Shown here piece by piece: positions 49,255 to 50,578 of a DNA stretch of 64,000 nucleotides. Positions within the stretch are counted from its first letter, which is position 1. Every line of letters starts with the position of its first letter. The translations under genes were made by a program, and so were the position numbers. The notes beneath the pieces were generated by a model, which saw nothing but the letters and a program-made list of their open reading frames with translations, did no database searches and was not told the origin of the DNA. The DNA lies in the NCBI RefSeq assembly GCF_001548115.1, contig NZ_AP014821.1:2855262-2919261 (forward strand), in the 5' to 3' direction. This stretch comes from Geminocystis sp. NIES-3709 (GTDB taxonomy: Bacteria; Cyanobacteriota; Cyanobacteriia; Cyanobacteriales; Cyanobacteriaceae).

Positions 49255-50578
49255 CTAATGAATTAATCGAGGATCGAGTAAAGTGGCTTTATCTGGTTCT
49301 CTTTTAAACCAAGGGGCTGTTTTTTTACAAATCTCTACTAACATTAACATAACTGGCACTTCAATTAAAACTCCCACGACTGTAGCTAATGCAACCCCAG
49401 AATTTAACCCGAATAACATTACAGCAGTGGCGATCGCCACTTCAAAATGATTACTAGCCCCAATTAATGCCGCAGGTGCAGAATCTTCATAGGATAAATT
49501 AAGTTTTAAAGCGATAACATAGCTAATTAAAAAGATAAAATTAGTTTGAATAAATAGAGGAATTGCTATTAATAAAATATGCAAAGGATTATTAACAATT
49601 AGTTCTCCTTTAAAAGCAAATAAAAGGATTAAAGTTAATAATAAGGCGGAAATTGCAATGGGAGAAAGATATTGTAGAAATTTTGTGTCAAACCATTTTC
49701 TGCCCTTATATTTAAAAATCCAATAACGACTAAAAACAGCACAAATTAAAGGCAATCCCACATAAACTAACACCGACAATACGATCGTTTCCCAAGGTAC
49801 AATTAAATTATTTACTGATAATAACCATTTACCCAAAGGTGCATATAAAAACAACATAGCGGTACTTTGAAAAATTTTTAATCAAAAACTGCTTGAAATC
49901 CTCTCAGATTAAAGCATTTACGTCAACACTATAAAAATAGCTGAAACCCTGGTTATAAAAGGAAAGGCTATCAATCGAAGTAAAGTCTTTGATTAATAAA
50001 GGTTTGAAACTAATATTTTGATATTTTTTTGTTTAAGTACCGATAGCAAGAGAATTAACTGCTACCATCACTAAAGTATGTGCTTGATTGCCATAGGAAA
50101 GATAACCCCACATTAATACCATTGCCGTACAAGGAGCAATACCTAATAAAATACATCCGGCAATGTAAGAGTTTGCCAAAGTAACTTCAACTCCTCTGAT
50201 AACTTCTGTTTGAGTCAGTAAGGGAAAAAATAAACCACCTAGAAAAAATTGAGCAAAAATAACCATGGTAAAAGGTTTAATTAACCAATTTACGACTAAA
50301 GTTAATAAGACAGGTTTTGGAGTTTGTATCGCTTTCATTGCCTGAGAAAAGTCTATTTTTACCATGATAGGATACATCATAAAAAATAAACAAATTGCGA
50401 TGGGAATAGAAACGTTATATATACTCATTGCATCAAGAGTTTTGGCGACGGTTGGGAAAATTCGCCCTAAACCAATTCCCAAAATAATACAAGCAACAAC
50501 CCACAAAGTTAAATATTTTTCAAAGAAACTAAGATTATTACCTGCTTTTACCAAAGAGGGCTTTACTGAATTGTCCAT
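49255..50578 (-). pseudogene. acr3: ACR3-family arsenite exporter split by a MITE-like insertion
   Basis: Two consecutive frames on the minus strand are the halves of one ACR3 permease. The N-terminal half (50033-50578, 181 codons) ends VMVAVNSLA followed by IGT from the insert; the C-terminal half (49255-49857, 200 codons) starts [16 protein letters not shown]3 normally reads AVNSL...LFLYAPLGK continuously here. Removing 187 bp (element 49860-50042 plus one 4-bp duplication) restores a single 378-residue frame with about ten membrane segments and the conserved cysteine in GCILLGIAPCTAMVLMW. ACR3 exports arsenite. Both halves are otherwise intact, so the insertion looks recent. Confidence 0.9.
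49860..50042. mobile_element. 183-bp MITE-like element in acr3
   Basis: Ends CGGTACTT (49860-49867) and AAGTACCG (50035-50042) are perfect 8-bp terminal inverted repeats. Flanks ATAG (49856-49859) and ATAG (50043-50046) form a 4-bp target duplication. Subterminal inverted repeats TTAATCAAA (49878-49886) / TTTGATTAA (49988-49996) add to the fold. It carries stops in all relevant frames and no gene, so it would need a transposase in trans. The transposase family is not identified. Confidence 0.85.

Follow-up and report, generated by a model that had tools for sequence, protein, structure and literature searches.

A short non-coding element divides acr3

On the reverse strand of the window (the whole stretch of 64,000 nucleotides that we analysed), the gene for the arsenite exporter ACR3 is present as two open reading frames separated by a 183-bp element (Table 1). 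The initial annotation had described this element as MITE-like and non-coding, with 8-bp terminal inverted repeats and a flanking ATAG duplication, and all of these properties were confirmed in the sequence: the terminal repeats are perfect (8/8 bp), and the open-reading-frame listing contains no frame of 80 aa or more inside the element. Its G+C content is 28.4%. The target within acr3 is a TA-centred 4-bp sequence, CTAT on the coding strand, and the element plus one duplication amounts to 187 bases, which is not a multiple of three.

The proposed gene halves of 178 and 200 residues were likewise confirmed, both as open reading frames and by their coverage of the acr3 profile TIGR00832. Positions 1-143 of this profile fall on the first piece (185.2 bits) and 145-327 on the second (225.2 bits), each score lying below the cut-off of 282.8. 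The upstream frame encodes 181 aa, comprising 178 acr3 residues and three codons that run into the element. The second half starts with an ATG that shares bases with the duplication, and relatives also encode methionine at this codon.

Table 1. Features of the divided acr3 gene and its inserted element (positions in the window)
Feature	Position	Strand	Basis
acr3, last 200 codons and stop	49255..49857	-	ORF, profile, relatives
Target-site duplication ATAG, copy 1	49856..49859	.	sequence and family comparison
MITE copy, 183 bp	49860..50042	- (arbitrary family-alignment orientation)	ends and family alignment
Terminal inverted repeat, one end	49860..49867	+	sequence
Terminal inverted repeat, other end	50035..50042	-	sequence
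Target-site duplication ATAG, copy 2	50043..50046	.	sequence and family comparison
acr3, first 178 codons	50045..50578	-	ORF, profile, relatives; ORF 50033-50578 stops inside the MITE

The acr3 site is empty in relatives

The first acr3 half matched 28 of 40 genomes, including this one, which has a single match. Among the congeners, G001, G002 and G004 carry acr3 open frames of 380-382 codons, and G003 gave no match. At each of the 99 loci compared, those of the three congeners included, the two halves are contiguous, gapless and in one frame. Of these loci, 19 come from relatives and 80 were taken from the 563 confirmed named ones; at least two are from the same genome (L102 equals L120 in both halves). 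Eight further matching genomes lie outside the comparison; the acr3 open frame is shorter in G023 (297 codons) and G005 (243 codons). The closest named relative at acr3 is Cyanobacteria bacterium CG_2015-22_32_23, at 85%. The element is thus not a sequence that all relatives carry at this site, and with acr3 uninterrupted in relatives and lying in separate frames here, the view that the MITE caused the disruption is borne out.

Relative-rate counts of amino-acid changes revealed no significant excess in the acr3 halves of this lineage. Against G004, the counts are 6:7 and 6:6 for the first half and 7:5 and 6:4 for the second; against G002, the first half gives 14:8 and 14:7, a tilt towards acceleration (chi-square 1.64 and 2.33). 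Because two other identical copies of the element exist in the genome and the halves have not changed significantly in excess, the insertion looks recent from these sequence comparisons, as the initial annotation had proposed.

The element belongs to a MITE family

Searching the complete genome (4,426,059 bases in 12 contigs) with the element returned 34 matches at E ≤ 0.001, three of them at 100% including the acr3-site copy, so the sequence is not confined to this position. A looser limit gave 41 matches, and contigs C2, C5 and C12 also hold copies. We examined 32 of the 34 loci by script. Both ends are present in 28, but not in the other four (L007, L013, L024 and L025). Copies are 181-183 bp long, with one of 197 bp and six of 203 bp, and fall into 19 distinct sequences, including identical groups of seven, three and two. 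All 28 two-ended copies have TA at the centre of both flanking tetranucleotides, compared with a TA share of 0.10 among the dinucleotides of 30 fetched loci. An identical 4-bp duplication flanks 23 of these copies and is lacking in five (L008, L009, L012, L023 and L037). The terminal stem is kept across 22 aligned copies, with four mismatched or gapped cells. These elements form a MITE family.

Not every feature of the acr3-site copy is a family feature. The 9-bp subterminal inverted repeats noted earlier are present in this copy, but in the 22-copy alignment their right-hand arm is retained only in L001 and L004. As DNA, the acr3-site copy folds better than its shuffles (z = -3.08; 0/200). 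We considered a conserved RNA fold and dropped it: the 22-copy consensus retains essentially the terminal stem, accompanied by two weak ones, and any double change is confined to 2 of 19 pairs. Rfam matches in the 64-kb window are limited to two tRNAs.

An ATG frame running in and a frame running out on the same strand are found at three of the 28 copies (the acr3 site, L015 and L017), with no joining of the frames. A frame borders the element on just one side in four copies (L002, L008, L012 and L021), and the remaining 21 lack any. L015 (frames of 197 codons entering and 390 leaving) and L017 (360 and 173, respectively) are copies of the identical subfamily, each splitting another long frame; by eye, the L015 host is PAS-repeat sensor-like and that of L017 carries glycine-aspartate-rich repeats.

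Two further arrangements were seen among the copies. Six (L027-L030, L037 and L038) share a 21-bp interior insert, whose exact sequence occurs in those six MITE copies only, with four other places matching at 3 mismatches. Very small mobile repeats have been described for cyanobacteria, and the insert recalls these. At L045 (870-1280), a MITE copy directly adjoins an IS701 remnant (IS bases 1123-1351) without a matching duplication, which suggests MITE insertion into the IS followed by deletion.

Matches to the MITE occur in five genomes among the 40 relatives, own included, and in 6 of 15 genomes of the family; near-full-length copies outside our genome are found in G008 only, the other genomes having fragments or end matches. 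The two-ended pattern had no match in genome_contigs, a weak piece of evidence on wider distribution, as the pattern would miss the G008 copies, whose end differs. The plasmid collection contained no match to the MITE.

Resident IS701 elements share the MITE ends

The initial annotation contained no autonomous insertion sequence with the same ends, and our scans of the genome found a set of them belonging to the IS701 family. Matches to the two MITE-end patterns form pairs about 1352 bp apart. With up to two mismatches there are 61 and 62 matches (19 and 8 for reversed-pattern controls), and with up to one mismatch 48 and 56 (0 and 0 for the controls). A search with one such IS produced 46 matches, 28 of which span the whole query or fall at most one base short of it. 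These full-length elements measure 1351-1352 bp; 12 are 99-100% identical (type A) and 16 are at 90%. The transposase of L063, a type-B element, scores 281.4 bits against NF033540 (IS701; cut-off 150), and Pfam DDE_5 matches the type-A frames. Relative to elements on cyanobacterial plasmids, one of which is annotated as encoding an IS701 family transposase, the partner IS shows 67-70% DNA identity.

Among 29 IS loci examined by script, 26 have both exact ends. All 26 have NTAN flanks; the 4-bp duplication is identical in 21 and not in the other five. Type-B elements (L063-L079) keep an intact 421-codon transposase frame in 15 of 17 loci, the exceptions being L078, which lacks the left-end string, and L079, which is disturbed. 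Type A (L051-L062) is nearly identical and widespread, with one common frame break after codon 140 in 12 of 12 copies. That these copies are broken yet amplified fits transposase action in trans and suggests that they moved in this way, though the break may alternatively reflect recoding of the frame.

The MITE and the resident IS701 elements have their eight terminal bases in common at both ends and follow the same 4-bp NTAN target rule. One MITE end agrees with the IS end of its own genome at 16 of 17 bases (94%) and is identical over 21/21 bases to the end of L091, a 1351-bp IS701 element from the family relative G014 (63% complete) whose frame encodes 421 aa (301.2 bits against NF033540). 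The other MITE end has its first 8 bases in common with the resident IS ends and no more, which would leave room for a transposase of another family, with CGGTACTT-like ends by coincidence, as the mover. We consider such a mover quite unlikely, given the common NTAN duplication rule, the 21-base identity at the first end and, among the matches listed in our own-genome scans, the absence of any further full-length element bearing such ends. From these sequence comparisons, the IS701 transposase probably moves the MITE.

Whether the MITE descended directly from the resident IS is another matter. Comparison of the two interiors gave short, chance-level matches only, which does not support an origin of the MITE by internal deletion of that IS; this mismatch, together with the 8-base agreement at one end, leaves such descent unsupported. 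In G014, the 257-bp element L088 is built of blocks 1-47, 206-254 and 1190-1351 of the L091 IS, which indicates that short derivatives of this IS701 line do arise and that the MITE uses such ends. L088 (1265-1521) is flanked by TTAA and GTAA. This internal-deletion derivative, a different element from the MITE at acr3, is possibly a MITE in the making.

Insertion into acr3 and its predicted effect

Together, we hold with high confidence that a non-autonomous, IS701-type MITE inserted at a TA-centred 4-bp target in acr3 and duplicated that target. In the mechanism that we propose, IS701 transposase from intact resident copies would act on the MITE in trans, the MITE would enter acr3 at CTAT of the coding strand with duplication of these 4 bp, and the permease would be divided into separate frames with loss of ACR3 function. 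A broader proposal is more tentative, and we put it at somewhat less than an even chance: the type-B IS701 transposase may drive in trans the 12 type-A copies and the MITE subfamilies of ~180-200 bp, and thereby host-gene losses such as that of acr3. If true, a transposase poor in cis preference would here be sustaining its own parasites in nature.

The effect on the protein was judged from a structure model of an intact relative's ACR3 (mean pLDDT 74, 28 aligned sequences). The break follows residue 178 and lies within the predicted helix 165-192, where local confidence is ~60. Residues C150 and E344, invariant in 28/28 sequences, are located on different halves; residues like these we take to be needed for transport. 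A PDB search with the first half gave no match. With a predicted helix interrupted and the permease divided between two reading frames, the ACR3 of this genome would no longer be functional.

Each half does have a start codon and an open frame, and neither is significantly accelerated, as would be expected if the halves still formed a working split ACR3, or if the gene were now a truncated and regulated one. We regard either arrangement as very unlikely. Equal rates are expected for a recent loss too, the predicted helix is interrupted (at moderate confidence), and the promoter scan found no site within the element, with 1 in the 1 kb scanned against 4.7 expected from shuffles. An assembly error or chimeric repeat joined at this site is hardly credible: such repeats are classic assembly traps and the site is known from the assembly alone, but a misjoin would not create the perfect duplication, typical of the family, on either side of this copy.

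Loss of ACR3 by MITE insertion would leave the genome with no other recognisable copy. Searches with the first acr3 half and with PF01758 found no second acr3; a third PF01758 match was rejected as a candidate, being a BASS-like frame of 199 aa that scores far below its cut-offs. The initial annotation had also suggested looking for another arsB gene. Two proteins match PF02040 above the Pfam cut-off, but with the ArsB models they reach 34.9-104.5 bits, far below the cut-offs of 415-760; the second was scanned against the ArsB models by its 270-aa frame only. At L201, a single TAG stop interrupts the matching part of a PF02040-like transporter frame, possibly another broken transporter. SuoT is a relative of ChrA, and a ChrA-type transporter frame of 380 aa is present in this genome as a possible substitute exporter. 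In Synechocystis, SuoT has a role in transporting arsenite, according to the accessible part of one report (PMC4307280). Because the PF02040 proteins and the ChrA-type frame are present, arsenite sensitivity is not to be assumed.

Comparison with known systems

The family resembles prokaryotic, including cyanobacterial, type I MITEs: its members are short and non-coding, with terminal inverted repeats, a target duplication, many copies and ends shared with an IS, and they lie mostly outside long ORFs while splitting some genes. Nezha of cyanobacteria is a further element to which this comparison extends by name alone. In Anabaena sp. 90, disrupted ORFs harbour 15 of 147 MITEs, and the available text of that study (PMC3542288) assigns the MITEs of that strain to type II, lacking a matching IS; here, in contrast, a matching IS701 is resident. 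The available part of a second study describes mcy genes inactivated by MITEs (PMC10969869). MITE-made pseudogenes of cyanobacteria are thus already known from what these sources contain (PMC3542288, PMC10969869), and acr3 adds one example, leaving general understanding unchanged. What the locus offers is a clean, datable case in which a MITE has presumably cost a cyanobacterium the one ACR3 exporter that can be recognised in it. Furthermore, one genome unites intact IS701 copies, others that amplified despite a broken frame, and MITEs with ends in common with them, making trans-mobilisation directly testable.

Our literature search, with subscription papers mostly outside its scope, found no description of an IS701 MITE of cyanobacteria. 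The partner IS is like the IS701 family in scoring above the NF033540 cut-off and in its 4-bp duplication, the family duplication being given as 4 or 5 bp in the portion of the source available (PMC8024623); the MITE lacks a transposase and resembles the family at its ends only. For ACR3, the comparison system in Synechocystis is arsB of the arsBHC operon, whose product is described as Acr3-like in the accessible text (PMC4307280). As in ACR3-type exporters of cyanobacteria, both halves here match TIGR00832; unlike in those exporters, the gene is split by an insertion and each half falls under the family cut-off.
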